Positions 2,396-58,470 of a stretch of DNA of 64,000 bases are shown here, one piece after another. Made by a program: the position numbers and the translations under genes. Within the stretch, counting starts at the first letter, position 1, and each line of letters begins with the position of its first letter. Source of the DNA: Pseudomonas furukawaii (GTDB lineage Bacteria; Pseudomonadota; Gammaproteobacteria; Pseudomonadales; Pseudomonadaceae); NCBI RefSeq assembly GCF_002355475.1, contig NZ_AP014862.1, forward strand, positions 4,154,001 to 4,218,000. The letters run 5' to 3'. The notes under the pieces were generated by a model. The model did no database searches, had not been told where the DNA came from, and worked only from the letters and a program-made list of their open reading frames with translations.

Positions 2396-2438
2396 CACAC
2401 AGCGGTGTAACCGCTCCCGATAGCTCAGCGGCTTTTTT
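2396..2438 (+). promoter_or_regulatory. c4 cassette 1: a1-b1 target site with overlapping hairpin/terminator
   Basis: a1 is CACACAG (2396-2402) and b1 is CTCCCGA (2414-2420). They are exact complements of a' (2526-2532) and of part of b' (2478-2486). Two exclusive hairpins share the CCGCT at 2411-2415: AGCGG-TGTAA-CCGCT (2401-2415), or CCGCT...AGCGG followed by CTTTTTT (2411-2438), which is a terminator with b1 in its loop. The layout matches the a1/b1 region upstream of phage c4 RNAs. No convincing promoter could be picked upstream. Confidence 0.7.
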
Positions 2439-2477
2439 GTGCACGCTTCATACTCGCGCGCTCAAAACCTCTGCTCT

Positions 2478-2541
2478 GTCGGGAGTGGGCTAATACAAGA
2501 CCCGAAAGGGGAATATGCCCGGCCTCTGTGTGGGTTTCTTA
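2478..2541 (+). ncRNA. c4-like antisense RNA, cassette 1
   Basis: The order is b' (GTCGGGAGT, 2478-2486), a core with GGGC/GCCC closing pairs (2487-2490, 2517-2520) around a CCCGAAAGGG tetraloop hairpin (2501-2510), then a' (CTGTGTG, 2526-2532). The size from b' to a' fits the roughly 77-nt c4 RNAs of phages P1, P7 and P22, which repress an antirepressor gene. The mature ends are not known. The IS element begins at 2542, so this RNA is cut off from its own bro gene and could act on it only in trans. Confidence 0.75.
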
Positions 2542-3451
2542 GGTTCTGTACGAAAAGTCGGTGCAGGTAGAATTGCCGCCATGATTGGCTGGAGGCCCAC
2601 ATGGCAAGGCGCTACGAACTCCCGGATGCGGGCTGGGAGTTGATCAAGGATCTGGTTTCCCCGGAACAGAAGATGGGCCGACCTCGAAGTGATGATCGGT
2701 TGGTGCTGAACGGCATCTTCTGGATCCTCTGCTCCGGAGCCGCCTGGCGTGATCTGCCGGAGCGTTTCGGCCCGTGGTCGACGGTGTATCAACGGTTCCG
2801 TGACTGGCGAGACGACGGCACGTTTGACCGAGTACTTGAGCGATTGCACGTCCGGCTGAATCAGGAAGGCCTGATTGACCTGGAGTCGTGGATGATCGAC
2901 TCCACTGCGGTGCGCGCAACCCGAGCCTCTTCTGGCGCCGGGAAAAAGGGGGGCCAGAAGAACCGGTAGACCATGCATTGGGACGTAGTCGAGGCGGCCT
3001 GACCACCAAGATTCACCTGATCTGCGATGCCAATGGGATACCTCTTCGCTTCATGCTGTCACCGGGGCAGGCCAGCGACATTGCACATGCTCAGCCGCTC
3101 TTGGATCAGGTGCGTATTCCCGGAAAGTCGGGACGGCCTCGTAAGCGCTGCCGCTGGTTACTGGCAGACAAAGGTTACGATGCCGAACATCTGCGCCAGT
3201 ACTGCGACCGCTACCGCATGCAGCCGGTGATTCCGCAGCGCACCATGAAGCGCAAACCCAAGCCAGGACTACCCCGACTGTTTGATCGTCCGAAATACCG
3301 GCAACGGAACATCATCGAGCGGATGTTTGGCTGGCTGAAAGAGAACCGGAGAATTGGCACCCGCTACGACAAGCTCGCCAGAAGTTTTGGCGCGATGGTC
3401 ACGCTGGCTTGCACGCTGCGATGCCTACGGCAGTACTTTTCGTACAGAACC
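2542..3451 (+). mobile_element. IS5-family (IS427-group-like) insertion sequence, 910 bp
   Basis: It is bounded by perfect 17-bp terminal inverted repeats (GGTTCTGTACGAAAAGT at 2542-2558 and its complement at 3435-3451). A 2-bp TA target duplication flanks it (2540-2541 and 3452-3453). The uninterrupted target is visible in the other two cassettes (TTTCTTAACTCCCG). The insertion lies between a' and b2 of the first c4/bro leader. Two overlapping transposase frames joined by a -1 slippery run are typical of the IS427 group. The ends look intact, so it may still be mobile. Confidence 0.95.
2601..2969 (+). CDS. IS5-family transposase, orfA (upstream frame)
   Basis: This 122-aa frame carries the N-terminal helix-turn-helix region typical of IS5/IS427 transposases (DUF4096-like, GRPRSDDRLVLNGIFWIL) and the first catalytic Asp of the DDE triad (MIDSTAVRA, about residue 99). 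It ends shortly after a run of five A and six G (2943-2953). Ribosomes slipping back one base there would continue into the frame that holds the rest of the catalytic domain. The start is the ATG at 2601, some 60 bp inside the left inverted repeat. On its own the product would lack two of the three DDE residues, so the active enzyme should be the frameshift fusion. Confidence 0.9.
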   Translation: MARRYELPDAGWELIKDLVSPEQKMGRPRSDDRLVLNGIFWILCSGAAWRDLPERFGPWSTVYQRFRDWRDDGTFDRVLERLHVRLNQEGLIDLESWMIDSTAVRATRASSGAGKKGGQKNR

Positions 3452-3454
3452 TAA
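2888..3454 (+). CDS. IS5-family transposase, orfB (frameshift continuation)
   Basis: This frame supplies the second catalytic Asp (LADKGYDAE) and the Glu (RNIIERMFGWLKENRR) of the RNase H-like DDE domain. It overlaps orfA and is in the -1 frame relative to it, so it is probably made by programmed -1 frameshifting at 2943-2953 and not from its own start. The stop codon TAA (3452-3454) lies outside the element: it is formed by the TA target duplication plus the next host base. The downstream bro leader resumes at once. Confidence 0.9.
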   Translation: MDDRLHCGARNPSLFWRREKGGPEEPVDHALGRSRGGLTTKIHLICDANGIPLRFMLSPGQASDIAHAQPLLDQVRIPGKSGRPRKRCRWLLADKGYDAEHLRQYCDRYRMQPVIPQRTMKRKPKPGLPRLFDRPKYRQRNIIERMFGWLKENRRIGTRYDKLARSFGAMVTLACTLRCLRQYFSYRT

Positions 3455-3500
3455 CTCCCGACACCAACAGCCCCAAGAAAGCTGTCGATCACATAGAGGT
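3454..3500 (+). promoter_or_regulatory. c4 target b2-a2 and ribosome binding site of bro copy 1
   Basis: b2 is ACTCCCGAC (3454-3462), fully complementary to b'. A CAGC/GCTG hairpin follows. a2 is CACATAG (3490-3496), which pairs with a' through one G-U. a2 runs into the AGAGG Shine-Dalgarno (3495-3499), so pairing with c4 RNA would mask the start of translation. The site is separated from its c4 gene by the IS element. Confidence 0.7.
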
Positions 3501-3507
3501 AATGGAT

Positions 3508-4017
3508 ATGCCCGAGTTTCCCCAACTCAATCCCACGCCCCCGGCCGATGCCGAAGTCCTCCTGCCCAGCCTGTTCATCCGCCACAAGCGCCAGTTGCGC
3601 GCGGTGTTGCTGGAGGCTGAGCCCTGGTTTCCCGCCAGCGACCTGTTCCGCCTGATTCACCATCCGCTGCTGTCGGAGCGGGTGCGGCGCAACCTGGACG
3701 ACGACCAGTGGCAGCGGGCCTGGATGCGCAACAGCAACGGCGAATTCGAGGAGGAGTTCCTGATCAGCGAGTCCGGTGCCTATGCCGTGCTGATGTTCTA
3801 TTTCCACCCCGAGAACCGCGCCATCCGCCGCTGGATCACCCAGCAGGTGATTCCCCGCCTGCGGGACGAAGGGCGCCTCAAGGGCCAGCGTCCCCGCCGC
3901 GACGTGATCCCGTGGCGGGAGCACGAACTGGAGGTGCTGCACTGGCAAGGTCGCACCTGGCTGGATGTGAGTGAGTGCCATCGCTTGTTGCAGCGGCCGG
4001 AACGGGTGATTGGCTGA
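3508..4017 (+). CDS. Bro-N domain protein (phage antirepressor-like), copy 1
   Basis: The 169-aa product is almost entirely a Bro-N domain (about residues 15-115: LFIRHKRQLRAVLLEAEPWF through ISESGAYAVLMFYFHPENR and WITQQVIPRLRDEG) plus a short basic tail. Bro-N domains occur in phage antirepressors and baculovirus Bro proteins and bind DNA or repressors. Two in-frame ATGs lie at 3502 and 3508. The second is chosen because the GAGG at 3496-3499 is then 8 nt away instead of 2. It is nearly identical to the genes at 5138 and 58479 (the ATRR stretch has Ala where copy 2 has Val). The IS in its leader probably changes its expression. No integrase or structural phage genes are nearby. Confidence 0.85.
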   Translation: MPEFPQLNPTPPADAEVLLPSLFIRHKRQLRAVLLEAEPWFPASDLFRLIHHPLLSERVRRNLDDDQWQRAWMRNSNGEFEEEFLISESGAYAVLMFYFHPENRAIRRWITQQVIPRLRDEGRLKGQRPRRDVIPWREHELEVLHWQGRTWLDVSECHRLLQRPERVIG

Positions 4018-4052
4018 GCCACCAGAAACCCGCTCGCAACTTGCAACTTCGC

Positions 4053-4090
4053 AGATACCGCCTTGATCGCTAGCGAGCAAGGCGGTATCT
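4053..4090. repeat. Perfect 38-nt inverted repeat
   Basis: Arms of 13 bp (AGATACCGCCTTG / CAAGGCGGTATCT) enclose a 12-nt loop that itself contains the palindrome CGCTAGCG. There is no T tract. The equivalent position after bro copy 2 lacks it. The rest of the stretch to the next REP repeats at 5962-6032. Confidence 0.75.
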
Positions 4091-4166
4091 ACGCGACTGG
4101 AGTTCAAAGGGTGATTGCACTGCAGCAACGAACCCTGCCAAGGAGCCAATTGGGGCCATCCAGTTA

Positions 4167-4197
4167 CGTAGGGTGGATGACGCTCTTCTCATCCACC
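4167..4197. repeat. REP palindrome upstream of the RAYT gene
   Basis: The CGTAGGGTGGATGACGC arm is followed by CTTCTCATCCACC, an imperfect hairpin of the kind mobilised by REP-associated tyrosine transposases. An inverted copy lies on the other side of the transposase gene at 4792-4822, which is the usual BIME-like arrangement. Confidence 0.8.
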
Positions 4198-4237
4198 AGC
4201 TCTTCCACCCGCAACACCAATGGCTCAAGGAGGGGTC

Positions 4238-4771
4238 ATGTCCAACTACCGTCGCGCCCGGATGCGCGGGGGCACCTACTTCTTCACCGTCAACCTGCGT
4301 AACCGGCACAGCGACCTGCTGGTCCGCGAAATCCACCTGCTTCGCGCCGTGGTACAGTCGGTCAAACACCGCCGCCCCTTCCATATCGATGCCTGGGTCG
4401 TGCTCCCCGAACACATGCACTGCCTCTGGACCCTGCCACCGGGCGACGACGACTTCGCCATGCGCTGGCGCTCGATCAAATTCGCCTTCTCCAAGCGCCT
4501 GGCCGACACCGAATCCCGCACCGAGGCTCAACGCACCCGGGGCGAACGCGGCATCTGGCAACGCCGCTATTGGGAACACCTGATCCGCGACGACCTCGAT
4601 TACCAACGGCACTTCGATTACATCCACATCAACCCGGTGAAACACGGCCATGTGCGGCGGGTATGCGATTGGCCGTATTCGAGTTTTCACCGGGCGGTGC
4701 GGGATGGCATCTACCCGGCGGATTGGGCCGGTGATGGCTTGGCGGACGACGATGTCCGCTGGGGAGAATGA
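4238..4771 (+). CDS. REP-associated tyrosine transposase (RAYT, Y1_Tnp family)
   Basis: The 177-aa protein has the Y1_Tnp (IS200/IS605-like) fold. The HUH metal site is HIDAWVVLPEHMHCLW (HMH), and the catalytic tyrosine is probably the one in LDYQRHFDYIHINPVKHG; WPYSSFHRAV follows. RAYTs are single-copy domesticated relatives of HUH transposases that bind and cleave REP hairpins. The ATG at 4238 is preferred over 4220 because AAGGAGG lies just before it. Inverted REPs flank the gene at 4167 and 4792, and a deleted copy of the same gene lies at 5738. It sits between two c4/bro cassettes, so it may have taken part in duplicating them. Confidence 0.9.
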   Translation: MSNYRRARMRGGTYFFTVNLRNRHSDLLVREIHLLRAVVQSVKHRRPFHIDAWVVLPEHMHCLWTLPPGDDDFAMRWRSIKFAFSKRLADTESRTEAQRTRGERGIWQRRYWEHLIRDDLDYQRHFDYIHINPVKHGHVRRVCDWPYSSFHRAVRDGIYPADWAGDGLADDDVRWGE

Positions 4772-4791
4772 GCCGGATTCGGGCCTCGCCT

Positions 4792-4822
4792 GGTGGATGA
4801 AAAGTGCGTCATCCACCCTACG
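4792..4822. repeat. REP palindrome downstream of the RAYT gene
   Basis: GGTGGATGA, a short loop, then GTCATCCACCCTACG: the inverted partner of the REP at 4167-4197. It abuts the conserved 5' part of the second c4/bro cassette. Confidence 0.8.
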
Positions 4823-4933
4823 CCGCCTTCACGCTTCTGCCTGCCCGATCAGCCATTTCCCACGCTGCAACTGCATTGCCCCCTCCCTGCACCGCCCATA
4901 GCCTCTTTCCCCGGCGCCTAAGAAACGCTTACT

Positions 4934-4976
4934 CACGTAGCGGTGTAACCGCTCCCGATAGCTCAGCGGCTTTTTT
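4934..4976 (+). promoter_or_regulatory. c4 cassette 2: a1-b1 target site with overlapping hairpin/terminator
   Basis: a1 is CACGTAG (4934-4940) and b1 is CTCCCGA (4952-4958). The terminator hairpin CCGCT...AGCGG-CTTTTTT spans 4949-4976, and the competing AGCGG-TGTAA-CCGCT hairpin lies just before it. The sequence is identical to cassette 1 except for the variable centre of a1. Confidence 0.7.
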
Positions 4977-5015
4977 GTGCGCGCTTCATACTCGCGCGCT
5001 CAAAACCTCTGCTCT

Positions 5016-5080
5016 GTCGGGAGTGGGCTAATACAAGACCCGAAAGGGGAATATGCCCGGCCTTCTACGTGGGGTTTCTT
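5016..5080 (+). ncRNA. c4-like antisense RNA, cassette 2 (uninterrupted)
   Basis: b' is GTCGGGAGT (5016-5024), followed by the GGGC/GCCC-closed core with the CCCGAAAGGG hairpin and a' CTACGTG (5065-5071). a' is a perfect complement of both a1 (4934) and a2 (5120), which carry a tag different from cassette 1. The mature ends are unknown. Confidence 0.78.
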
Positions 5081-5081
5081 A

Positions 5082-5130
5082 ACTCCCGACGCCAACAGCC
5101 CGAGGAAGGCTGCCCACTTCACGTAGAGGT
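5082..5130 (+). promoter_or_regulatory. c4 target b2-a2 and ribosome binding site of bro copy 2
   Basis: b2 is ACTCCCGAC (5082-5090), then a CAGCC/GGCTG hairpin, then a2 CACGTAG (5120-5126) overlapping the AGAGG Shine-Dalgarno. Pairing with b' and a' of the same transcript would be pseudoknotted because the order is b'-a'-b2-a2. Pairing by a processed c4 RNA in trans would not be. Confidence 0.72.
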
Positions 5131-5137
5131 AATGGAT

Positions 5138-5647
5138 ATGCCCAAGTCTCCCCCGTTTCACCCCACGCCTCCGGCCGATGCCGAAGTCCTCCTGCCCAGC
5201 CTGTTCATCCGCCACAAGCGCCAGTTGCGCGCGGTGTTGCTGGAGGCTGAGCCCTGGTTTCCCGCCAGCGACCTGTTCCGCCTGATTCACCACCCGCTGC
5301 TGTCGGAACGGGTGCGGCGCAACCTGGACGACGACCAGTGGCAGCGGGCCTGGATGCGCAACAGCAACGGCGAATTCGAGGAGGAATTCCTGATCAGCGA
5401 GTCCGGTGCCTATGCCGTGCTGATGTTCTATTTCCACCCCGAGAACCGCGTCATCCGCCGCTGGATCACCCAGCAGGTGATTCCCCGCCTGCGGGACGAA
5501 GGGCGCCTCAAGGGCCAGCGTCCCCGCCGCGACGTGATCCCGTGGCGGGAGCACGAACTGGAGGTGCTGCACTGGCAAGGTCGCACCTGGCTGGACGTGA
5601 GTGAGTGCCATCGCTTGTTGCAGCGGCCGGAACGGGTGATCGGCTGA
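5138..5647 (+). CDS. Bro-N domain protein (phage antirepressor-like), copy 2
   Basis: A 169-aa near-duplicate of the gene at 3508. Differences are confined to the first ten residues (MPKSPPFHP against MPEFPQLNP) and an Ala-to-Val change in the NR-x-IRRW segment. It keeps its complete c4-type leader, so of the two neighbouring copies it is the one most likely to be under normal antisense control. The second ATG (5138) is chosen over 5132 for Shine-Dalgarno spacing. No repressor or phage gene is adjacent, so its target is unknown. Confidence 0.85.
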   Translation: MPKSPPFHPTPPADAEVLLPSLFIRHKRQLRAVLLEAEPWFPASDLFRLIHHPLLSERVRRNLDDDQWQRAWMRNSNGEFEEEFLISESGAYAVLMFYFHPENRVIRRWITQQVIPRLRDEGRLKGQRPRRDVIPWREHELEVLHWQGRTWLDVSECHRLLQRPERVIG

Positions 5648-5679
5648 GCCACCAGAAACCCGCTCGCAACTTGCAACTT

Positions 5680-5710
5680 CGTAGGGTGGATGACGCTCTT
5701 CTCATCCACC
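5680..5710. repeat. REP palindrome
   Basis: Same hairpin as 4167-4197 (CGTAGGGTGGATGACGC...CATCCACC). It lies directly upstream of the deleted RAYT remnant, as the intact gene has it. Confidence 0.8.
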
Positions 5711-5737
5711 GCTTTGAAAGGCGACTCAGGAGGAATC

Positions 5738-5873
5738 ATGTCCAACTACCGCCGTGCAGTTCGCGCAGGACTGGCCGTATTCGAGCGTTCATCGGGCGGT
5801 GCGGGATGGAATCTATCCGGTGGATTGGGCGGGCATTGCGTTGGAGGAGGACGCGGAGACCTGGGGCGAGTGA
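5738..5873 (+). pseudogene. RAYT remnant with internal deletion
   Basis: It begins with the RAYT start (AGGAGG then [11 protein letters not shown]) and jumps within about 30 bp to the C-terminal part ([22 protein letters not shown]...), which is read in a different frame and ends at TGA 5871-5873. The HUH motif and catalytic tyrosine are gone. The C-terminal sequence differs from the intact copy ([11 protein letters not shown]), so it derives from a related RAYT and not from the neighbouring gene itself. REPs on both sides make it resemble a non-autonomous derivative. Confidence 0.8.
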
Positions 5874-5893
5874 GTACGGGATCGGCTCTGGTT

Positions 5894-5924
5894 GGTGGAT
5901 GAGAAAAGCGTCATCCACCCTACG
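5894..5924. repeat. REP palindrome (first of a tandem pair)
   Basis: GGTGGATGAGAAAAGCG followed by TCATCCACCCTACG, inverted relative to the REP at 5680. A second nearly identical copy follows after 9 bp. Confidence 0.8.
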
Positions 5925-5933
5925 CAACTGGTT

Positions 5934-5964
5934 GGTGGATGAGAAGAGCGTCATCCACCCTACG
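5934..5964. repeat. REP palindrome (second of a tandem pair)
   Basis: It differs from the copy at 5894-5924 by a single base in the loop. It is followed by a segment (5962-6032) that repeats the sequence found at 4091-4163 between bro copy 1 and the RAYT. Confidence 0.8.
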
Positions 5965-6057
5965 CGACTGGAGTTCGAACGGCGATCACTGCAGCAACGA
6001 ACCCTGCCAAGGAGTCGATTGGTGCCATCCAGGCAAGCCAGGTGCGGAGCATTGAGG

Positions 6058-6489
6058 TCAGTTGCCATGACCCTGCGAGAGCTCCGATGCACGAATGGCC
6101 TGGTCACAACTGGCGGTATCTTCTGTCCACCGGCGCTGCATGTACTTCTCCGCCCCGCCCTTGAACCCTCCTTGGGCACAGGCGTAGGCGTAGGTCTGGA
6201 CGTCCACCATGGACTGGCGGCAAGCGTGATATGAGGTCAGGGCCTGTCTTTTCCGATAATGATCGGGCCAGTCATCCAGCTTTCTCACCACCTCTTCAGC
6301 CACCTGGTAGAGGAGCCCCGTGGCATTGGGATCGCTACAGATTTCGGTGACCCTGGCATGCAGGGCATGGGCTTCCTCGATCAGCAGCCTGGCCTTGTTC
6401 GCCGCTTCCGCATCGGTGTAGACGGCTTCGACCTGCGCCCCGGCAATCACCGGCCATGCCATGGCCAAGACGAGATGAAAGGCTTTCAT
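6058..6489 (-). CDS. Small secreted protein, unknown function
   Basis: A 143-aa protein with a clear N-terminal signal sequence (MKAFHLVLAMAWPVIAGAQ, likely cleaved near residue 19). A helical, charged body with four Cys residues follows, which could form disulfides in the periplasm. AGGAGG lies 10 nt before the ATG at 6489; a GTG one codon upstream is also possible. No family was recognised. It is transcribed towards the repeat nest and separated from the Ycf48-like gene upstream by about 150 bp. Confidence 0.7.
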   Translation of the reverse strand: MKAFHLVLAMAWPVIAGAQVEAVYTDAEAANKARLLIEEAHALHARVTEICSDPNATGLLYQVAEEVVRKLDDWPDHYRKRQALTSYHACRQSMVDVQTYAYACAQGGFKGGAEKYMQRRWTEDTASCDQAIRASELSQGHGN

Positions 6490-6641
6490 CACTCAGCATC
6501 CTCCTGCGCGACCCGGATCAAAAAAAAGGGCCTGACGTCGACTCGCGACGGGGCCCTCAAAGGGTGACAACCACAATCCTCCACCTGGCCGGAACACCGC
6601 CAACGACTCGCCATTTCAGTGCGAGTCGAAGCGGCCCGTCA

Positions 6642-7604
6642 TCAGTCTTCTGCGGGCACTACACCGCGTCGTGAAAACAGCACGGGAGCACCGCCGCCGT
6701 TGAGCAGCACAGCCGTCAAGGAGACGCCATCAGCCGACAGCTGCTCCTGGAAGCTCTGGCCGCCATCGCTGCTGCGCACCATCAGCCCATCGAGGCCCAC
6801 CACCAGCACCTGGGGACCGGACACCGCAATGGACGTGACCGAACTCTTGCTCTCCAGCGGCAGACGACGGAAGTCCTTGCCCTCGGCGGTACCGTGCAAC
6901 AGCGTGCCGCGCTGGCCGCCGACCAGCAGGCTTCCATCGGCCAGCACCGCGCCGGACCAGAGGGTGCCTTCGTAACCGGTATCCAGGTAACTCCAGCTCT
7001 TGCCTTTGTCCTCGGAGCGCAGCACCTGGCCCTGTTCGGCCGTGGCATACAGGCGGCCGTGTCCATCGGCAAACAGCCCCATCAGATTGAGGTCAGCCCG
7101 GCTGGACCCCGGTGGGGCCTGCACCGTCTGCTCCGCCCAGGTCCGCCCACCGTCATCGGTCGTCAGCACCAGGGACCAGAGGCCAACCGCGACACCCTGC
7201 CGGGCGTTGAAGAAATGCACGGCGAACAGTGGCCGGTCCTCTTCGCTGGACAGGCGCTGGATCTGCCAGGAGTCACCACCGTCCGAGGTGGACAGGATCG
7301 CGCCCCAGTGGCCAACGGCCCAGCCCTGCTTGTCATCGACGAAAGACACGCCGTTGAGCGGCGAGGACAGCGGCACCGAGTTGGCCTGGCGAAAGCTTTT
7401 CCCCTGGTCGTCGGACAGCAGCACCATGCCGTGGTCGCCCACGGCGACCACGCGATCCTTCGCCCAGGCGGCCCCCAGCAGGGTGGCCTGCGTGGCATGG
7501 CCCGCCTGGGCGGCCGGCACGGGTTGCAATGGCGCGGCCTGGAGCGGGAACAGCGGCAACACTGTGGCGAGCAGGGTCCCCATGAATGAAGTCAGGTATC
7601 GCAT
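6642..7604 (-). CDS. Ycf48-like / BNR-repeat periplasmic protein
   Basis: The 320-aa product has a signal peptide (about residues 1-23) and a series of beta-propeller BNR/Asp-box-like repeats (SDDQGKSF, SDGGDSW, DDGGRTWAE, SEDKGKSW, SSDGGQSF), each followed by the V-G-x-x-G patch seen in Ycf48 proteins. Plant and cyanobacterial Ycf48 helps assemble photosystem II. In proteobacteria such proteins recur next to RND/MMPL exporters and DUF1302/DUF1329 genes and probably act as periplasmic partners. The gene starts 10 bp after the stop of the RND gene with GAGGAG before its ATG, so it is the last gene of that operon. Confidence 0.85.
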   Translation of the reverse strand: MRYLTSFMGTLLATVLPLFPLQAAPLQPVPAAQAGHATQATLLGAAWAKDRVVAVGDHGMVLLSDDQGKSFRQANSVPLSSPLNGVSFVDDKQGWAVGHWGAILSTSDGGDSWQIQRLSSEEDRPLFAVHFFNARQGVAVGLWSLVLTTDDGGRTWAEQTVQAPPGSSRADLNLMGLFADGHGRLYATAEQGQVLRSEDKGKSWSYLDTGYEGTLWSGAVLADGSLLVGGQRGTLLHGTAEGKDFRRLPLESKSSVTSIAVSGPQVLVVGLDGLMVRSSDGGQSFQEQLSADGVSLTAVLLNGGGAPVLFSRRGVVPAED

Positions 7605-7614
7605 CTCTCTCTCC

Positions 7615-11714: not shown

Positions 11715-11735
11715 GTCGGCTCCCGAGATTCGCAA

Positions 11736-13157: not shown

Positions 13158-13231
13158 TGGAAGGTCCTCACGGGGCGTTGACCGGCGGCGCGACCTTCCT
13201 GGAGGGAAGGATCGGCTTGTGCCGCATTTTC

Positions 13232-13260
13232 TTAATCAAGTGACATGATCAAATGAACAA
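13232..13260 (-). promoter_or_regulatory. Promoter of the DUF1329 operon with embedded TetR-type operator
   Basis: On the minus strand TTGTTC (13255-13260), a 17-bp spacer and GATTAA (13232-13237) form a plausible sigma-70 promoter. Positions 13235-13256 hold a 22-bp element with two TCANNTGA halves (TCAAGTGA, TCAAATGA). The same element, 20/22 identical but reversed, lies in the promoter of the second PhyH gene (29698-29719). Both sites lie near a TetR gene of the same subfamily. The remainder of 13158-13610 holds no gene. Confidence 0.65.
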
Positions 13261-13610
13261 GTCCGATGACTACAAAGCAAGCCACATGCCAAACGCCAAG
13301 AAACTGAAAATCTCTTTATTTATCAGCTCGTTATGAAAATTAAGCACCTGATCGGCGATACCTGTCACCTCAAGAGCGCACCAGTGCGTGTCAGCAGGCC
13401 GCACCATTTTGGGAATTTACGGAACACGTGTTACGAAGATATACCGGGATCAGGGGTCACCGGAGAGAGGGCAAATGCAGGACCTGTTTACAACTTAGTC
13501 GCACCGCCGAAGACCCGCCCATGTCTCGACGAACGATGATCCTGTAGCATCCGGCGACATTGACGCCGAGACCGCAGCGGCAGCGCTGCAAGAATGGAGA
13601 TGACTCAGAC

Positions 13611-19667: not shown

Positions 19668-21500
19668 ATCGGCATAGGGGGCGGCCTTCACAGGCCGCTC
19701 CCCTGCCACACCACCCGGCATGCGGGTCCGCACCGGGCGGTTCGAGGGATTGAGGTCAGGAGAGGCGTGGCACGCCGAGACGGTCAAAGTAGGCAGTCGT
19801 CAGCACGCGGTGCACGGCGGAAAGGCTGTTATGCCACCAGCGGCGGCTCAGCGCTGCCACCGATTGCGCCACCTGGGGACTGGCTCCAAGGCGGAGTAGC
19901 TCCCGGTAGGTCGTCTTGCCACGGCGCCAGTGCTTGAGGTGAAGGGCACGCAGACGGCGGCGTATCCACTCGTCCAGCGCTCGCCAGATTCGGGGGGTTT
20001 GTGCCAGCCCGAAATACCCTTTCCATCCCAAGAGGTAGCTGCGCAGTTTCCCGGCCACATCAGCCAGGCTGCAGCCACCGGACCGGCGGGTCAGTTGCCT
20101 GACTCGTTGCTTGAACGTTTCCCGCGCCTTCATCGACACCCCGCGCCGAACCTCGGCGTTCGAGGTCTGCCAAAGGGCATAACCGAGGAATCTCCGGCCA
20201 AACGCGCTGACCACCGCACTCTTGCGCTCATTGACGCTCAAGTGCAGCCGCCCATACAGGCGCTTTAGCCAGGCCATCACCCGTTCACCCGCCTTGACGC
20301 TGCGGACGTAGACGTTCGCATCATCGGCATAGCGCACGAAACAGTGGCCTCTTCGCTCCAACTCCCGATCCACTTCGTCCAGCAGCACATTCGCCAGTAA
20401 CGGCGACAGCGGGCCGCCTTGCGGCGCCCCGCAGCGGCTTTTCTCGACCACACCAGCCTTCAGCGTTCCGGCATCCAGATACGCGCGCACCAGCCGGATC
20501 ACCGACCGGTCCGCAATCCGTTGGCTTAAACGATCAATCAGGATGTCGTGATCGACCCGATCGAAGAACTTCTCCAGGTCCACATCCACCACGATCCGAC
20601 GCCCTGACGCGACATAACGCTGCGCCGCGAGGATCGCGCCGTGGGCGTTACGGCCAGGGCGAAAACCGTAGCTGTGTTCACTGAAGGTGGGATCAAGGAG
20701 TGGCTGCAAGACTTGCAGCAGCGCTTGCTGGATCAGGCGGTCGGTGACCGTCGGAATGCCCAGCTCGCGTTCGCCACCATCCGGCTTGGGAATCACCACG
20801 CGGCGTACCGGACTGGGCCGATACGTCCCTGACAACAGCCTATGGCGAATCCCGGCCCACGCGGTCAGCAGGTGCTCGGCCGTCTGTTCAATGTCCAGAC
20901 CGTCGACACCCGCCGCCCCCTTGTTGGCCTTGACCCTTTTCCAGGCGCGCTGCAGGTTGCCTCTCGCAAGGGCGCGTTGCAGCAGCCCTTGCCCTGCGCT
21001 TTCGGGATCACCTTGCGGGCGCAATGCCTCGTCGCTGACGGCGCGATTCACGGCTTCACCGTTTCTCGTCGGCGTCCGCCCCGCGTTTGGCGGGCATCTG
21101 ACTTCCGGTCATGTCGCATCAAGATGGCCTCCGGCGCTCTCTCTCGTTCGGCCCTTCGTCAAAAAACAACTACTACGGCCTCTGCTGACTTCTCGCTCCG
21201 GCTGCCGCCGTCGCCCTTTCAGGCACAAGGCGAGATCTCCCCAGGTAAGAACGCAATCCTTCACCGCACAACCGCCGGATCTACGCCGCCGCCCTTTGAC
21301 CACGAGGGCTTCGCGGCTTTTTGCCCGCTCGCCCTGGTCGGCATCGCCTTCTATCCGGTTCTTGTTCATCGGCTCGCGGCTTCGCTCCACGCTTCCTCCC
21401 CACACTCGGTCACCCTCATGCAGTTGCGCTTCACTTCGTTCGCTGTGGTCAACTCACGGCGGGACTCTCACCCACAAGATTGCGCCCATGCTGGGCGCAC
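19668..21500 (-). mobile_element. Group II intron (complete, about 1.83 kb)
   Basis: On the minus strand the intron begins GTGCGCCCAGCATGG (5' end at 21500), followed by the conserved AATCTTGTGGGTGAGAGTCC region. It ends in a domain V-like hairpin (ACCGCCCGG...CCGGGTGGT around 19710-19742). A domain VI stem with GGCCGC arms follows, and the final ...CCTATGCCGAT puts the 3' end near 19668. It encodes the reverse transcriptase at 19756-21051. The 5' exon is a Rho-independent terminator (21501-21525), the preferred target of bacterial group IIC introns. The exact 3' boundary is uncertain by a few bases. Confidence 0.85.
19756..21051 (-). CDS. ltrA: Group II intron reverse transcriptase/maturase
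   Basis: 431 aa, GTG start. It has the reverse transcriptase fingers-palm region (VVIPKPDGGERELGIPTVTD, YGFRPGRNAHGAI, VVDVDLEKFFDRVDHDIL), the catalytic FVRYADDANVYV motif (YADD) and GAPQGGPLSPLLANVLL. The C-terminal GIIM maturase domain X includes LRSYLLGWKGYFGLAQTP. There is no HNH endonuclease domain after the maturase domain, as in class C and some other lineages. The protein would splice its own intron RNA and copy it into new sites. The frame is intact. Confidence 0.95.
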   Translation of the reverse strand: MNRAVSDEALRPQGDPESAGQGLLQRALARGNLQRAWKRVKANKGAAGVDGLDIEQTAEHLLTAWAGIRHRLLSGTYRPSPVRRVVIPKPDGGERELGIPTVTDRLIQQALLQVLQPLLDPTFSEHSYGFRPGRNAHGAILAAQRYVASGRRIVVDVDLEKFFDRVDHDILIDRLSQRIADRSVIRLVRAYLDAGTLKAGVVEKSRCGAPQGGPLSPLLANVLLDEVDRELERRGHCFVRYADDANVYVRSVKAGERVMAWLKRLYGRLHLSVNERKSAVVSAFGRRFLGYALWQTSNAEVRRGVSMKARETFKQRVRQLTRRSGGCSLADVAGKLRSYLLGWKGYFGLAQTPRIWRALDEWIRRRLRALHLKHWRRGKTTYRELLRLGASPQVAQSVAALSRRWWHNSLSAVHRVLTTAYFDRLGVPRLS

Positions 21501-45001: not shown

Positions 45002-45020
45002 ACCACGCAGGCCGGAGCCT

Positions 45021-45272: not shown

Positions 45273-45307
45273 CCAGCAAAACAACAAAAGCTTCAGGAGC
45301 TCGTCTC

Positions 45308-47304: not shown

Positions 47305-48942
<1,638 letters not shown>

Positions 48943-48951
48943 GGTGGCCCC

Positions 48952-49926: not shown

Positions 49927-49996
49927 TACGCCGGAAATCGTCCCCGACACCTGACCTGAGCGCTGCCTTCCAGGCCCCTATTCGAGACCCGCAAAG

Positions 49997-51589: not shown

Positions 51590-51766
51590 ACGACCAGGCA
51601 TCCGCCGTCCCCGTCCCGCTTCGTGCCCGACCGCCGCATGGCGGCGGTCGTTCGCAAGCACTGATGGCATGTTCCGGGCGCCCAGCCCGGGACTGACCAG
51701 ACACTGGCTGGCGGCCTGGCCCTGCAAGGGGCCGCCGCCACTTCAGCAACCCCCGGAGCCCTTCCC

Positions 51767-53191: not shown

Positions 53192-53226
53192 CCTGCCCGA
53201 ATCGACACGAAAACGATGCAGCCTTT

Positions 53227-53250
53227 GACGCCCTTCGGGGCGTCTTTTTT
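53227..53250 (+). terminator. Rho-independent terminator of the Baeyer-Villiger operon
   Basis: GACGCCC-TTCG-GGGCGTC followed by TTTTTT, 36 bp after the aldehyde dehydrogenase stop. Confidence 0.9.
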
Positions 53251-53555
53251 GGGTTCATCGCGGAGTATCTGGGAATTCCTGTTCACACTGGATTGGCGAT
53301 TTTGCCCGGAGCCCTGACCCACTCCCAGTCTGCGGATACCGCCCCCTCCCCCGCCCCTCTCCCAGAAGAGGAGAGGGGTGACCCGCGCCGGCAGGGGACA
53401 AGTCATCCTGCCGCGCAAACCGATCTGAAACCAGGCGAAGACGATGACGCCGCGCGAAGTGCCCCGTCAGGAGGCCGAGCGGAGTCGTCGTGCAGGGGGA
53501 CGAGCGGCATGGAGGCCACCGAAGTCGGTGGCCGCCTGGTTGAAACGCCCTCGAC
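53251..53555. other. Intergenic stretch between convergent operons
   Basis: No gene is supported. A hairpin of CCCCTCTCC / GGAGAGGGG (about 53354-53378) resembles a dispersed repeat. Nothing else is evident. Confidence 0.5.
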
Positions 53556-54212
53556 TCAGTTGCTGTCAGTCGCGAGGCTGGCCAGGTAACTGGCGATTGC
53601 CTTGCGGTCGTCCGGTGAGGCCGCACTGGCAATGGTTTTCATCACGCCAGTGGCCTCTACGCGCTTTCCATTTGCGAAGTTGTCCAGTTGCGCAAGGAGA
53701 TAGTCGAAACCCTGGCCAGCCAGGCGCGGAAAACCTTCGTGGCCCAGCAATTGCGCCCCATGGCATGCGCCACATGCCCCGCTTTCCACAAGCGTCCTGC
53801 CCTTTTCGCGCAAGGAAGATTCGGGACTGAAGCTGGCGTTGTTTCCCGGACGTTGCTTGGCGAAGTAATCGGCAAGCGCCTTTATCTCCGCTTCGCTCAA
53901 GGTCATCGCCAGGGGAGTCATGTACGGATTGCTACGCGTTCCGCTGGCGAAATTCTGAAGCTGGGCCGTGATATAGGGAGCCGGCTGCCCGGCCAGACTT
54001 GGATACCGCTGATTCTGTGAATCCCCTTTGAAGCCATGGCAGGCGATGCAGACATCGGACAGGCGAGGCCATGGCCCCCCATCGAGTTCCGCTGCCTGGT
54101 TCGAGTTCTCGAAATGCTTCTGCAGCAGATAGAGATCCCGACCATCGGGGCCCCATATGACCAGCAGGACGGCAACGATGCTGACGAAACCCAGCAGGAT
54201 GACCTTCTTCAT
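53556..54212 (-). CDS. Dihaem cytochrome c (c4-like), partner of amine oxidase 2
   Basis: 218 aa, the same length as the paralogue at 22347. A membrane anchor or signal (VILLGFVSIVAVLLVIWG) is followed by CIACH (about 56) and CGACH (about 147), MTPLAMT and the paired YPSLAGQPAPYITAQL / FPRLAGQGFDYLLAQL segments. Its ATG overlaps the amine oxidase stop (ATGA) with GGGAGG upstream, so the two are tightly coupled. It should take electrons from that enzyme and pass them to the terminal oxidases. Confidence 0.92.
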   Translation of the reverse strand: MKKVILLGFVSIVAVLLVIWGPDGRDLYLLQKHFENSNQAAELDGGPWPRLSDVCIACHGFKGDSQNQRYPSLAGQPAPYITAQLQNFASGTRSNPYMTPLAMTLSEAEIKALADYFAKQRPGNNASFSPESSLREKGRTLVESGACGACHGAQLLGHEGFPRLAGQGFDYLLAQLDNFANGKRVEATGVMKTIASAASPDDRKAIASYLASLATDSN

Positions 54213-55684
54213 GCGGGCCTCCCGACATGGCGCAGCGCGTTGAGAACCTGCAGGGCACTCCGATGCCCCGAACGCACAGCACCATCCATGTACCCTGCCC
54301 AGATATCGGCCGTCTCGGTGCCGGACCAGATCAGATTGCCGCAGGGTGGACGCAGGGCCTTGCCGTGCTCGCTCCAGAATCCAGGCGGGATTGCCGAGAC
54401 GCAGGTGATCGTCCAGGGATCGTCCTGCCCCCAATCGTGATCGTAGTAAGCCAGAGGTGACAAAGCCTCTTCGCCCAGTGCCTGGGCATAGATCTCGACC
54501 TGGGCCCGCTCAGCCTGGCCAGGGTCCGATGGCAGCACCGCGCTTCGAACGAAGGCATTGATGACACCGATTTCCCCATTCGGCGGCGAGTTGTCGTAAG
54601 CCCAGATCACGGGCCCTCCGATTTGCGCGATATGACCATTCAACCCCTTCTCTCGCCAGAACGGCCGGGCGTACACCATCGCCGTTTTTCTCATCGGGGA
54701 ATGTCCAGGCCAGGCGCGCTGAAGAGCCGCACGTGCCGCCGGAAGCTGCGGAGCGAACTCGATCTGCTGGCACAGGGCGGGATGTATGGCCATGATCACT
54801 TTTCGCGCTCGCACCTCACCGCTGTCGGTCCGCAGGGTCACGACCTCCTTGTCCCAGTTTTCAATCTGGCGGACCGGACTGGAAAGCCTGACCTTTTCGC
54901 CAAGCTGCTCCGCCATCCTGGTGCTCAGTAGCTGAGATCCGCCAATGAAGCGGGTCTCCTGGGCGCTGTGCTCCATCGAGTCGAGTTGCGAGTATTCGCA
55001 GTTCGCGGAATTGATCATGGAAAGGAAGTGCAGCAGCCCCATCTTGGCGGGCATGACGCCCCCCGATATCAGAACCCCGCCCTCGAGACTCAACTTCTTC
55101 TCGAAATCCACATCCTGATCAGCCAGCCACTCCCCCACGGACATCCTGTCCAGCTCGGCGACCCGAGGAGACTCCCATGGGGCTCCCGATGGAACATCAC
55201 GAGAGAGCTCGCTCAGCTTTGCCGCGACAGCCTCGTCAGCGCCGAGCGTGCCCTTCAGGTCCATGGCCATTCGGCCGCCGCCCCCCAGGAAGACCGAGTC
55301 ACCCTGGTAGTAGGACGGAAAGGTTCCCACCCCCAACTCCCGGGCAAGATCCGCCACCGCAGTCTGACCGGGACCGATCCATTGCCCGCCGGCCTCGGAA
55401 ATGTGGCCATTCCCCAGATCATGATTGAGGGTGCGCCCGCCCACGCGGTTGCGCGCTTCGATGACCAGAAAGGACTCACAGCCCGCCTTGAACAGGCTGC
55501 GGGCGGCCGTCAGGCCCGCCAGACCGGCACCGACTATGACGACATCAAGGACGTCGTCATCCGAGTCGGCCTTTGCCCACCCAGGCTTCAGCCCGATTCC
55601 ACCAAGAGCGATCGAGGCCCCAGCGAACTGGAGCAACTTCCGGCGGGGAATATCAACGGTTCCCCCCGCGACAGGCTTATTCAT
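54209..55684 (-). CDS. Tat-exported flavin monoamine oxidase-like enzyme 2
   Basis: 491 aa, close in length and sequence to the enzyme at 23013. The twin-arginine signal is IPRRKLLQFAGASIALGG (Arg14-Arg15), the FAD motif DVVIVGAGLAGLTAARSL, then VGGRTLNHDLGNGHISEAGGQ and the C-terminal SGTETADIWAGYMDGAVRSGH. Differences in the middle (GVLISGGVMPAKMGLLHFLSM against TVTITGGVPVQKMGLLHYLSM) may reflect another amine. It forms a two-gene unit with its cytochrome c, downstream of an AraC regulator on the same strand. Confidence 0.92.
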   Translation of the reverse strand: MNKPVAGGTVDIPRRKLLQFAGASIALGGIGLKPGWAKADSDDDVLDVVIVGAGLAGLTAARSLFKAGCESFLVIEARNRVGGRTLNHDLGNGHISEAGGQWIGPGQTAVADLARELGVGTFPSYYQGDSVFLGGGGRMAMDLKGTLGADEAVAAKLSELSRDVPSGAPWESPRVAELDRMSVGEWLADQDVDFEKKLSLEGGVLISGGVMPAKMGLLHFLSMINSANCEYSQLDSMEHSAQETRFIGGSQLLSTRMAEQLGEKVRLSSPVRQIENWDKEVVTLRTDSGEVRARKVIMAIHPALCQQIEFAPQLPAARAALQRAWPGHSPMRKTAMVYARPFWREKGLNGHIAQIGGPVIWAYDNSPPNGEIGVINAFVRSAVLPSDPGQAERAQVEIYAQALGEEALSPLAYYDHDWGQDDPWTITCVSAIPPGFWSEHGKALRPPCGNLIWSGTETADIWAGYMDGAVRSGHRSALQVLNALRHVGRPA

Positions 55685-56107
55685 GATTTTCTCCCCAGAG
55701 CCGCCGACCCATGAATTGAGACACAGTCAGACCGCCCTCTCCTGCGGAGCAGGAAGCGGATATTGCCGATCTGTAGCTCGCTCATACCCTGGCCCACTTC
55801 GGTCTATTGGATTTAAAGAGTTCCAATCCTGTACACACCAAATCCTTGGATGTACGACATAGAAGCGCACCCTCCATTCAGGCAGGTTCGTGGTTATCGA
55901 TCATGCGCTTCGAAGAACACCGTCAACTGACCGGGACAGCCCTGAGGTGCCCTCTGAACAAACGGCTAAAAGTGAAGGGTTTCTTCGATCGCCAATACGA
56001 CAAACGCGCTATAGGGAGTGCGCCCTGATAGGCAAGCTACTCAAAGCAGGAAAAGTGCGCTTGCCAGCTCATGACAAATCATTGACATGCGATGCCAATG
56101 GATCGAA
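55685..56107 (-). other. Promoter region of the amine oxidase 2 unit
   Basis: A 423-bp gap between the AraC stop and the amine oxidase start, both on the minus strand. It is less GC-rich than its surroundings. No gene is supported. It is the natural place for AraC binding sites, but I could not define a repeated half-site by eye. Confidence 0.4.
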
Positions 56108-57103
56108 TCAGCCCCTTGCGCGCTGGCGATACTTGAGAGGAGTGAGTTGAGTCCACCGGCGAAATGCGCGGCTGAAAGAACTGGCTTCCGAGTATCCGAG
56201 CAACAAGGCGATATGGGTGAAGCTGTAGTCGGATCTGGCGACGTATTCTTCCGCCAAAGAGCGACGTACATCTTCAACTACCTGAGTAAAGTCCAGGCCC
56301 TGTTCGGAGAGTCGGCGCTGCAAGGTGCGTACGCCCATGTTCATGCTACTGGCGACCCACTCGATGCTTACACCACCACTGCCCAGGCCACTGGCGATAT
56401 GTGCCGCCATTCGGCCAAGGAGTTCTGACTCGACACGAGCCGAATGCTGCCGCTGCAGGAAGGGCTCAAGCGCCTGGAACAGCCGGGTATCCGCCGTCAG
56501 GATCGGCATATCCAGAAGGCTTTTGGCGAACACCATTCGATTGTCGGGCTGATTGAAGACAACCGGGCAAGAGAACACGTCCTGATAGACAGAAAGATCA
56601 CCCAGCCTGTCGTGTTCAAACTCTACCCGGACCGGCTTCAGACTGGAGCACTTGGTCAGCTCTCGCAAAATTGCGAGCGCAGCACTCGTTGTGTATTCGG
56701 TATCCTGGCGACGCTCGGTGATGAGCGGATCGACCACCTGATAGATCAAGGTGACGAACGAATCATTGACGCTGACTTCGGTTCGCGCACCTTGGGCAAG
56801 CACGGCATAAAAGTGACTCAGGCAACGAAGCGCCAGCTGCATCGACGGCGCGCTTCGCGCGGCGTATCCATAGGCACCCCAGTCACTGCTTTGAGCCCGG
56901 GCGCCAGTCTGAAGGCCGACGCTGGGTGAAACTTCGCGACCAACCACCTCCCACAAAGCCATGTACTGGGACAATGGGATCTCTGCATCAGGTGACGTCA
57001 GAACCTTTTCACCAAGCCCCACTGCCCCCAGATAGGGCGCGAAAAGCGCTGCATTTCTCACGAACAGGCTTTCGCAGAAAACGGTGTGACGACGGTCAGT
57101 CAT
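56108..57103 (-). CDS. AraC family regulator (OruR/GbdR-like sensor type)
   Basis: 331 aa. It starts at the ATG of MTDRRHTVFCESLFVRNAALF; the longer upstream frame is not supported. The N-terminal domain is of the Arabinose_bd type (LWEVVGREVSPSVGLQTGA). The C-terminal HTH pair is IEWVASSMNMGVRTLQRRLSE and ITHIALLLGYSEASSFSRAF with RRWTQLTPLKYRQ. It lies directly upstream of amine oxidase 2 and its cytochrome on the same strand, and is probably their activator responding to the amine. Confidence 0.88.
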   Translation of the reverse strand: MTDRRHTVFCESLFVRNAALFAPYLGAVGLGEKVLTSPDAEIPLSQYMALWEVVGREVSPSVGLQTGARAQSSDWGAYGYAARSAPSMQLALRCLSHFYAVLAQGARTEVSVNDSFVTLIYQVVDPLITERRQDTEYTTSAALAILRELTKCSSLKPVRVEFEHDRLGDLSVYQDVFSCPVVFNQPDNRMVFAKSLLDMPILTADTRLFQALEPFLQRQHSARVESELLGRMAAHIASGLGSGGVSIEWVASSMNMGVRTLQRRLSEQGLDFTQVVEDVRRSLAEEYVARSDYSFTHIALLLGYSEASSFSRAFRRWTQLTPLKYRQRARG

Positions 57104-57288
57104 AATGGATGATCGCAACCAGAATATCGCCAGAACAAAGGTTCTGGCACAGCTACATCTGACCATCCTAGATGCAGTGCAACGCTTCGAAAAGAGCATC
57201 TCTCCATCGCGCAAAAGGCGCGACATGCGCCATGTCGACATGGCCGGACAAGAGAACACGGCCGCCCAGTGGCGGGAAAATCGAAAGC

Positions 57289-57879
57289 CTAGAACGAGTG
57301 CTCCCTGGCAACGGACTCCTGGGCTATGAACCGGGCAACCAGATCCTCCGCAGCCGCGTACTCCTTTTTGAGCGCGAGATCCATGAGTTGAATCTGCATC
57401 AGTTCTTGTCGAACCATATAGGCATAAAACTCCCGCTCCTCGGCAGGACCTAAGCCAGAAAGCCACCGTAGCCGCTCGACATACTCAACCGTTCTATTAC
57501 GCAAATTCTCGATAACCCAGGGCATCATGAAGCCCGGCAACCAACTTATGACCCTTGCCTTGATCGAAACCCAGGTCCTGCCAGGCAACTCGATACCCAA
57601 CACCCTCGCTATATTTTCATACCTGGGCCGGCTGAATTCCTCCAGTCGATGATAGGAACTCCAGTAAGTATTCATTTCCCCTTCATCGAAGCGCTTCGCC
57701 ATATTGGCCGTAATGGCATGCATCGTCGCACGACCATCCAACTCATAAGACATACCCTTGATAAATTCAGGACTTGGCATTTCCGAAGCAACCACCTCAA
57801 CACATAAAAATAAAAACAAACCAAAACTTGCCAACAGATCTTTTAAATCATTAATACAAATGACACCCGGCACACTCAT
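57289..57879 (-). CDS. Hypothetical protein with N-terminal hydrophobic segment
   Basis: 196 aa from the ATG at 57879 (GAGGG upstream). A hydrophobic stretch (LLASFGLFLFLCVEVVASE) near residues 15-33 could be a signal or anchor. The rest is helical and charged (MAKRFDEGEMNTYWSSYHRLEEFSR, YVERLRWLSGLGPAEEREFYAYMVRQEL). No family was recognised. Base composition is less GC-rich than the catabolic genes. It lies upstream of the AraC gene on the same strand with a 185-bp gap. Confidence 0.6.
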   Translation of the reverse strand: MSVPGVICINDLKDLLASFGLFLFLCVEVVASEMPSPEFIKGMSYELDGRATMHAITANMAKRFDEGEMNTYWSSYHRLEEFSRPRYENIARVLGIELPGRTWVSIKARVISWLPGFMMPWVIENLRNRTVEYVERLRWLSGLGPAEEREFYAYMVRQELMQIQLMDLALKKEYAAAEDLVARFIAQESVAREHSF

Positions 57880-58271
57880 GACCACCCTCACTTCCGCCTT
57901 AAAAACACATCTCCACAACAAACGATCAGGCTTTAAGAAACATCTCACGCCACGTCTCGACAAACGAGCCGCACTAAAGCTTTCAGAAACGCGTACCAAC
58001 ACGAAGAGTTTCAGCACCCTATTCCGGCAAAAACAATCCCTAGTCTTTCAGGATATGGCATCAGTCAACTTGACATTTCACGCCATTTTCTTCGCATTTT
58101 ATGCAAATACACCTATCGCCATGGACCAGGTCCCCGAGTTGGATGGGTAAAGCGCGATCCCCCTTGGGCTGACTTCCGTGGGCCGATCAGCCATTTCCCA
58201 CGCTGCAACTGCATTGCCCCCTCCCTGCACCGCCCATAGCCTCTTTCCCCGGCGCCTAAGAAACGCTTACT

Positions 58272-58314
58272 CAAGCAGCGGTGTAACCGCTCCCGATAGC
58301 TCAGCGGCTTTTTT
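58272..58314 (+). promoter_or_regulatory. c4 cassette 3: a1-b1 target site with overlapping hairpin/terminator
   Basis: a1 is CAAGCAG (58272-58278), b1 is CTCCCGA (58290-58296), and the terminator hairpin with CTTTTTT spans 58287-58314. Sequence similarity with cassettes 1 and 2 begins about 120 bp upstream (from about 58150), 53 kb away from them. The stretch 57880-58150 holds no gene. Confidence 0.7.
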
Positions 58315-58358
58315 GTGCACGCTTCATACTCGCGTCCGCAAAAATCCTCCTCTGTTCT

Positions 58359-58424
58359 GTCGGGAGTGGGCTAATACAAGACCCGAAAGGGGAATACGTC
58401 CGGCCCTCTGCTTGGGGTTTCTTA
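58359..58424 (+). ncRNA. c4-like antisense RNA, cassette 3
   Basis: b' is GTCGGGAGT (58359-58367), then the core with the CCCGAAAGGG hairpin. The core-closing arm reads GTCC instead of GCCC, which keeps pairing through a G-U. a' is CTGCTTG (58408-58414), perfectly complementary to a1 (58272) and a2 (58461) of this cassette. Confidence 0.78.
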
Positions 58425-58470
58425 ACTCCCGACGCCACAGCCCTGAGAAAGCTGTTAAACCAAGCAGAGG
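58425..58470 (+). promoter_or_regulatory. c4 target b2-a2 and ribosome binding site of bro copy 3
   Basis: b2 is ACTCCCGAC (58425-58433), then a CAGC/GCTG hairpin, then a2 CAAGCAG (58461-58467) merging with the AGAGG Shine-Dalgarno (58466-58470). Confidence 0.72.

Follow-up and report, generated by a model that had tools for sequence, protein, structure and literature searches.

Why would a bacterial chromosome hold three cassettes of one design, each marked with a short sequence tag of its own that is written three times? The question is raised by 64,000 nucleotides (nt) of Pseudomonas furukawaii DNA (contig 1, positions 4154001-4218000, in a genome of 6.2 Mb; this whole stretch is called the window below), in which each cassette is made up of a leader, a small RNA and a gene for a Bro-N protein, and in which the tag stands in the leader (a1), in inverted form in a loop of the RNA (a') and at the ribosome binding site (RBS) of the gene (a2). 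Across 216 elements of this kind, pairing of the RNA loop is far better with the leader and RBS of its own element than with those of the nearest relative bearing another tag. We consider it quite probable that the cassettes work as antisense switches of the phage P1 c4 type, each with a tag of its own. The observed sequence relations, two-part tags that covary and an RNA belonging to the sRNA-Xcc1 family, point to c4-type control, and binding, processing and regulation are what we infer from them.

All window features described here lie on the plus strand unless stated otherwise. The tags of cassette 1 are CACACAG (a1, 2396-2402), CTGTGTG (a', 2526-2532) and CACATAG (a2, 3490-3496, which makes one G-U pair with a'); those of cassette 2 are CACGTAG (4934-4940), CTACGTG (5065-5071) and CACGTAG (5120-5126), and those of cassette 3 are CAAGCAG (58272-58278), CTGCTTG (58408-58414) and CAAGCAG (58461-58467). 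All of them were found where a preliminary description of this DNA had placed them. That description had also held the surroundings to be nearly identical, with changes confined to the tags. The alignment used extends from the shared leader through c' (the strand that directly follows the loop on its 3' side); a1 and a' make up its tag columns, and a2 is excluded. In it, differences do concentrate in the tags: cassettes 1 and 2 differ in 5 of 17 tag columns versus 5 of 222 others (Fisher p 0.0002), cassettes 2 and 3 in 5 of 17 versus 12 of 222 (p 0.004), and cassettes 1 and 3 in 5 of 17 versus 15 of 222 (p 0.008). The concentration is thus real, but with 5-15 of the 222 other columns differing, the confinement is not strict.

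The wider collection was sampled from bacteria and phages (at least 120 stretches each from GTDB genomes and IMG/VR viral contigs, found with a pattern for the RNA core) and supplemented with loci from the genus. Its 261 core matches left 220 unique elements once window copies, short ends and duplicates had been removed, and 216 of these had enough flank. An exact 7-nt complement of the loop was present in the RBS zone of 116 and in the leader zone of 168 of the 216 (both zones in 92, neither in 24), while mismatched partners gave one in 2.8% (RBS) and 4.9% (leader). As a control for relatedness, the pairing of each loop with its own site was compared with its pairing with the corresponding site of the most similar relative bearing another tag. 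In the antirepressor-type group (n = 127), the own site was better in 116, tied in 4 and worse in 7 in the RBS zone, and the respective figures in the leader zone were 115, 7 and 5; for all 216 elements they were 170, 20 and 26 (RBS) and 190, 11 and 15 (leader). The tag covariation under c4-type logic that the preliminary description had proposed, and had suggested pursuing in further cassettes, is borne out by these 216 elements and by 88 further copies treated below, and the layout it described (leader copy, small RNA, and RBS copy before an antirepressor-type gene) recurs among the 216. Complementarity to two sites, upstream of and at the RBS of the next gene, which serves as a criterion of c4-type control, was found in the family and in the window alike, and in both the leader repeats the two target sites.

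The second part of the tag is c' (GTTTCTTA; 2534-2541, 5074-5081 and 58417-58424 in cassettes 1 to 3), which pairs with c1 (TAAGAAAC; 2381-2388, 4919-4926 and 58257-58264) just upstream of the tag copy in the leader. Near the RBS, cassette 2 has a weak site, c2, AGGAAG (5103-5108), and cassette 3 has TGAGAAA (58444-58450), each pairing with c' with one G-U. Elsewhere in the family c' reads GTTTCGAAC, GTTTTGAGC and others, and among the 216 elements it pairs better with its own than with the relative's leader in 153 (tie 43, worse 20) and with its own RBS region in 126 (tie 34, worse 56). The order of tag and c site is antiparallel, as in P1. The preliminary description had drawn its second helix from constant "b" elements; these are present, yet GTCGGGAGT and ACTCCCGAC are the two strands of the RNA's closing stem, and the CTCCCGA upstream of them falls within a terminator loop. 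A "b" helix between the closing 5' strand and the terminator-loop zone was better with the own partner in 41 elements, tied in 91 and worse in 84, the opposite of covariation, and was rejected.

The RNAs of cassettes 2 (5016-5098, 72.1 bits; closing strands 5016-5024 and 5082-5090) and 3 (58359-58441, 72.6 bits; closing strands 58359-58367 and 58425-58433) are members of the Rfam family sRNA-Xcc1 (RF02221, gathering score 53). Cassette 1 is a broken member, and scores 43.3 bits because an insertion sequence (IS) of the IS4/5 group (2542-3451, with TA at both ends and reading frames for DUF4096 and DDE_Tnp_1 at 2601-2969 and 2888-3454) splits the RNA. Its 5' part (2478-2541; closing strand 2478-2486, core 2492-2515, then a' and c') is separated by the IS from the closing 3' strand (3454-3462), a2 and the gene. 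This cassette is also the only one of the three in the window with an imperfect a2 match. The preliminary description had proposed a search with the Rfam C4 model (RF01695, gathering score 45 bits); no match was obtained in the whole window at that score, and the cassette 3 locus gave none at E ≤ 0.5, while P1 c4 itself scored 68.8 bits, so that the matches at the cassettes are to sRNA-Xcc1 instead. The IS, the leader terminator and the 25 C4 loci of the genome outside the window (the latter two described below) were absent from that description. A fourth sRNA-Xcc1 locus of the genome, at 6107582, has the loop CTGTGAG and a leader match CTCACAG (by eye). Here (about 1630-1690 of L003, reverse strand) a second CTCACAG, also read by eye, marks the RBS of a short frame of 20 codons overlapping a Bro-N-like gene at its start, an arrangement like that of icd before ant in P1 and of orf45 before anrP.

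Set beside the immI region of phages P1 and P7 (Rfam C4 and c4-a1b1, RF03163; PMC5320573, PMC2864571 and PMC12197685), the cassettes share the succession of leader copies, RNA, RBS copies and antirepressor-type gene, and a two-part tag. The order in the P1 record (a1, b1, c4, a2, b2, gene) is that of the cassettes, with the "a" of the preliminary description corresponding to the P1 "b". Folded by eye, P1 c4 likewise has a closing stem, a small hairpin, a 3' hairpin whose loop pairs with the RBS, and a single strand for the second pairing, and its leader shows a similar hairpin and T-rich stretch beside the leader copy. Unlike P1 c4, the cassettes do not match the C4 model, have a larger conserved hairpin with AATACAA..ACCCGNAAGGGGAATA, and are chromosomal with a single 169-amino-acid (aa) Bro-N protein. 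The C4-like Group 1 small RNAs of A. baumannii (PMC5320573) are comparable in having many copies per genome, variable pairing loops and apparent processing from longer RNAs; their targets are left open in that account, whereas the partner sites and the downstream gene of our cassettes lie next door. Our literature search, which covered few subscription journals, found no link between sRNA-Xcc1 and C4 and no paper on sRNA-Xcc1 with the term "antirepressor" in the text it could reach; one paper lists annotations of the two side by side. Joining sRNA-Xcc1 to the c4 type of phage RNA would let the tag logic explain a widespread family for which our search turned up no known target. For an RNA reported in 2010-2011 and tied to virulence regulators, it would supply a testable partner, namely its own leader and, outside the Xanthomonadaceae, the RBS of the next gene.

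The Xanthomonadaceae show a different pattern. Of 136 sRNA-Xcc1 matches in 37 genomes, 100 from 17 genomes were taken, and the 12 without a recognisable core were dropped to leave 88. One duplicate (an overlapping match) and two Xanthomonas copies of a different type were also set aside. The analysis covered 69 Xanthomonadaceae copies from 12 genomes, and 66 of them had an exact 7-nt match in the leader, versus 5 of 1380 trials with other tags at the same places. Between 130 and 900 nt downstream, 1 of 69 copies matched (other tags 26 of 1380). Judged by complementarity, the conserved partner of these RNAs is their own leader. They differ from the cassettes in standing before SymE or short unknown genes and in having the leader copy only. 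sRNA-Xcc1 has been published as integron-borne and upstream of symE (PMC12444791). The two copies of the other type (L318 and L331) do have an RBS match (CTCGAAGG), unlike other copies of the same genomes. Another five genomes contributed 16 phage-type copies, and in 16 of 16 the pairing at both sites extends over at least 6 bases, a count made without a control.

These relations would fit the following scheme. A single transcript from a presumed promoter upstream would run through the leader, with c1, a1 and an intrinsic terminator. Read-through would yield an RNA with three hairpins, about 83-92 nt long, together with the mRNA for an antirepressor-like Bro-N protein, and RNase P would probably excise the RNA by cutting at the closing stem. 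Two stretches of the freed RNA, the 3' hairpin loop (a') and the unpaired strand that follows it (c'), could then pair with c2-a2 at the RBS and block translation, and could also bind the leader copy c1-a1 in trans. In this way, the tagged small RNAs before antirepressor-like genes probably switch those genes off. Because the tags differ between cassettes, each RNA should act mainly on its own.

For the leader, an intrinsic terminator between a1 and the RNA was predicted in 200 of 216 elements versus 74 of 648 shuffled sequences (shuffles here and in the RCC test below preserve base composition only), and a helix overlapping the 5' arm of the terminator in 101 of 216 versus 19 of 648. In cassette 1 this attenuator (2401-2438) has AGCGGT at 2401-2406, ACCGCT at 2410-2415, AGCGG at 2427-2431 and a T-run at 2433-2438, and the helix of arms 1 and 2 is mutually exclusive with the terminator formed by arms 2 and 3 (AGCGGT/ACCGCT versus CCGCT/AGCGG). 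The corresponding arms are at 4939-4944, 4948-4953 and 4965-4969 in cassette 2 (4939-4976; T-run 4971-4976) and at 58277-58282, 58286-58291 and 58303-58307 in cassette 3 (58277-58314; T-run 58309-58314). Because the end of a1 falls in arm 1 of the hairpin that competes with the terminator in the window, an RNA bound at c1-a1 should favour early termination.

Several results weigh against this scheme, or limit its reach. The C4 model gave no match in positions 1-6600 even at E ≤ 10. Twenty-four elements have no exact 7-nt match at either site, and an initial, unrestricted pairing score over wide zones was weak (above 99% of the null in 27 of 220 elements downstream and 9 of 220 upstream); it was replaced by the position-limited tests reported above. 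Among the five tag classes of the genus, calculated duplex energies favour a foreign leader over the own one in two and a foreign RBS in three. Within the window, the RNAs of cassettes 2 and 3 prefer their own RBS, but the cassette 1 RNA has a slight preference for the RBS of cassette 3; the mutual insulation of the cassettes that had been expected earlier is plausible but, by duplex energy, only partial. In the Xanthomonadaceae, the RBS zone had an exact 7-nt match in 0 of 69 copies (other tags 0 of 1380), so a block at the RBS is not universal. Finally, the competing helix was found in 0 of 45 Xanthomonadaceae-type leaders, so attenuation through this helix is not general either.

The role of the leader copy is the part of the scheme most open to another explanation. 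With the RBS part unchanged, the leader copy might be a decoy rather than an attenuator, the terminated leader RNA soaking up the small RNA and so turning the gene on; this is a possibility that we take seriously even as we lean against it. The precedent is the IsrK leader RNA of Gifsy-1 (RF01394), likewise a terminated leader with alternative hairpins upstream of a small reading frame and an antirepressor gene, whose short form activates the read-through mRNA in trans (PMC4825925). In being a reported activator it is unlike the cassettes as we read them, and the isrK model had no match in the window at its gathering score, nor in positions 1-6600 at E ≤ 10. The P1 immI leader, however, is a sub-threshold isrK match (1231-1312 of L270; 35.1 bits, gathering score 50), which suggests that isrK and c4-a1b1 are leaders of the same kind, and leader copies are retained where the RBS copy is absent. 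On the other side, the competing helix beside a1 in 101 of the 216 leaders points to control of termination, and a decoy in the Xanthomonadaceae would need another target, of which none appeared to 900 nt downstream (the single match being at chance level, and the rest of the genomes not having been searched).

A second alternative dispenses with the antisense RNA altogether, a1, a' and a2 pairing within one RNA molecule. In every cassette a read-through transcript, if made, would contain all three sites, and complementarity alone does not separate pairing in cis from pairing in trans. We nevertheless regard this fold as improbable. In Xanthomonas (Xcc), sRNA-Xcc1 is a discrete RNA with a Northern band of about 100 nt (PMC2996969), and for the C4-like RNAs of A. 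baumannii far more reads cover the C4 region than the sequence upstream (PMC5320573). A closing stem of at least 6 pairs, moreover, is present in 216 of 216 elements (no control was run for this count), and RCC follows it on the 3' side in 155 of 216 versus 30 of 216 shuffled sequences, a combination that resembles an RNase P substrate.

It is more improbable still that the sRNA-Xcc1 RNAs act mainly on unrelated chromosomal mRNAs such as those of virulence genes. The Xcc RNA is described as trans-acting, with targets that are predicted and none shown, and with control by HrpG/HrpX (PMC2996969, PMC12444791 and PMC12189769); such a role is conceivable in the Xanthomonadaceae, where the RBS copy is absent. 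The accessible parts of these three papers and of PMC7694677, PMC11701678 and PMC4909258 (in the last case a reference) name no target on the RNA's own transcript. If these RNAs had a conserved target at a distance, however, the loop should stay constant, and changes in the loop are instead matched next door, in the leader of 66 of the 69 Xanthomonadaceae copies and, in 116 of the 127 antirepressor-type elements, by an RBS that is better than the swapped one.

The tags do move. L249 and L252 sit at one locus with L255: the flanks that they share with it begin about 880 nt upstream, extend past 1200 nt downstream and are mostly 92-98% identical (80-92% in a few windows of comparison), but in three of the four windows over leader, loop and RBS identity is 72-78% (92-93% in the core window), and the tags differ. 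It thus appears that the tag module was swapped at one locus, and that tags travel as whole leader-RNA-RBS modules. Two copies in another genome of the genus (G013) are mostly 90-100% identical over cassette and gene and 73-88% identical from core to RBS, again with different tags. The flank upstream of cassette 2, which contains a transposase-like gene (4220-4771; Y1_Tnp, 20.7 bits, just under the Pfam cut-off of 23), is common to 11 loci with different tags, cassette 2 included. On a P. aeruginosa megaplasmid (L462, NZ_CP093017.1 284990-291499) there is a cassette at 95% identity that is a mosaic, its leader and RNA being those of cassette 3 and its 3' flank that of cassette 2. The idea that matched tags are a passive result of recent whole-cassette copying, without selection for pairing, can draw on this modular recombination and on the mosaic, but it is scarcely credible given that, among 136 distinct loop sequences, a matching RBS accompanies 81 and a matching leader 99, and that tag columns differ more than their surroundings. 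The megaplasmid cassette adjoins mercury-resistance genes and a Tn3-family transposase. What looks like the remnant of a transposase-like gene lies at about 5740-5880 of the window; like the gene at 4220-4771 it stands beside the cassettes, and repeated GGTGGATGA and TCATCCACC motifs accompany the two.

The three cassettes of the window are a corner of a genus-wide set of cassettes under putative antisense control. sRNA-Xcc1 occurs in 15 of 18 genomes of the genus with 27 matches, 2 of them without the core, and the 25 with a core fall into the five tag classes. Inspection by eye, with one G-U or a match of six bases tolerated, found all three sites matching in 22 of these 25; the exceptions are the IS-split L004, L265 (gene lost) and L267 (a1 lost). 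C4 is found in 18 of 18 genomes with 3 to 25 copies each (203 in total), and under stricter filters in 15 of 115 genomes sampled from the order; these count the present genome, and the others have 1 to 6 copies each. The genome of the window has 25 C4 loci (L422-L446; for example at 3774256, 970496 and 4271212 of contig 1), all above the gathering score and none in the window. Bro-N was detected by Pfam in 16 of the 22 proteins scanned from the genes next to these loci, and in 29 of 38 when 14 proteins from a second genome of the genus (G005) and the three of the window are included. Taking 25 of 25 C4 loci in the first genome and 15 of 18 in G005, the next gene starts within 60 nt in 20 of 25 and 12 of 15; for these, the own RBS is the best or tied partner of the loop in 17 of 20 (single best in 13) and 10 of 12. 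The loops were identified with a text rule, which works only roughly at L425, L431, L440, L450, L452 and L457, among others. A search for c4-2 (RF02944) in five genomes found it in 0 of 5 and was uninformative, since the controls gave no match either. A genus with up to 25 C4 and up to 4 sRNA-Xcc1 loci per genome, mostly before Bro-N genes in the two genomes examined, offers in its abundant tagged two-part antisense pairs a natural set for studies of RNA specificity.

With loops identified by this somewhat rough rule, the two-part tags of C4 are distinct in 25 of 25 loci in the window's genome and in 15 of 15 in G005; in the former, two pairs of loci share a loop and differ in the second segment, though two pairs are little proof. 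One may imagine a dispersed barcode array of 29 antisense loci (25 C4 and 4 sRNA-Xcc1), most of them preceding Bro-N genes, whose tags define incompatibility groups, a resident RNA silencing incomers of the same tag; we offer this idea tentatively and think it rather unlikely. Were it so, only copies with new tags would persist, and the chromosome would run a heteroimmunity based on RNA sequence tags, with superinfection control against incoming cassettes and phage antirepressors; the Xanthomonadaceae RNAs would then be pure self-limiting attenuators with no need of an RBS site. Selection for distinct tags within a genome was considered in the Xanthomonadaceae and is not claimed: same-tag pairs numbered 5 of 182 versus 10.4 in permutations (P 0.036), pairs sharing both tag and c part 1 of 182 versus 3.9 (P 0.08), and the control with the c part alone was depleted as strongly (31 versus 44.6, P 0.001); the distinctness is therefore due at least in part to shared descent.

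The gene behind the RNA is antirepressor-like by its Bro-N and PHROGs families, and its function is putative. In the window, the three genes (3508-4017, 5138-5647 and 58479-58988) each encode a 169-aa Bro-N protein, two of which match PHROGs anti-repressor families. Of 131 next-gene proteins in the main, antirepressor cluster, 2 were left out of the alignment; the other 129 matched Bro-N (61), P22_AR_C (28), AntA (20), KilA-N (16), P22_AR_N (12), pRha (10) and ORF6N (9), multiple matches being possible. Ten proteins from other clusters gave SymE_toxin in 2, a sub-threshold pRha in 1 and no family in 7, and 11 elements have a SymE-like frame no more than 2.5 kb downstream. Models of anti-phage defence did not match four Bro-N proteins, and a Bro-N structure predicted without an alignment (mean pLDDT 40.7) was too poor for use. 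Scans of neighbouring proteins covered part of the window's reading frames. Pfam found no phage structural or replication family in 18 further window proteins (two of them probably not real genes), and PHROGs none in 10, three of which matched families of unknown function or a regulator; for the proteins scanned, this would be in keeping with the earlier description of the cassettes as stand-alone units without a prophage. Elsewhere in the window, domains of a group II intron (RF02001 and RF01998) are present on the minus strand at 21151-21419.

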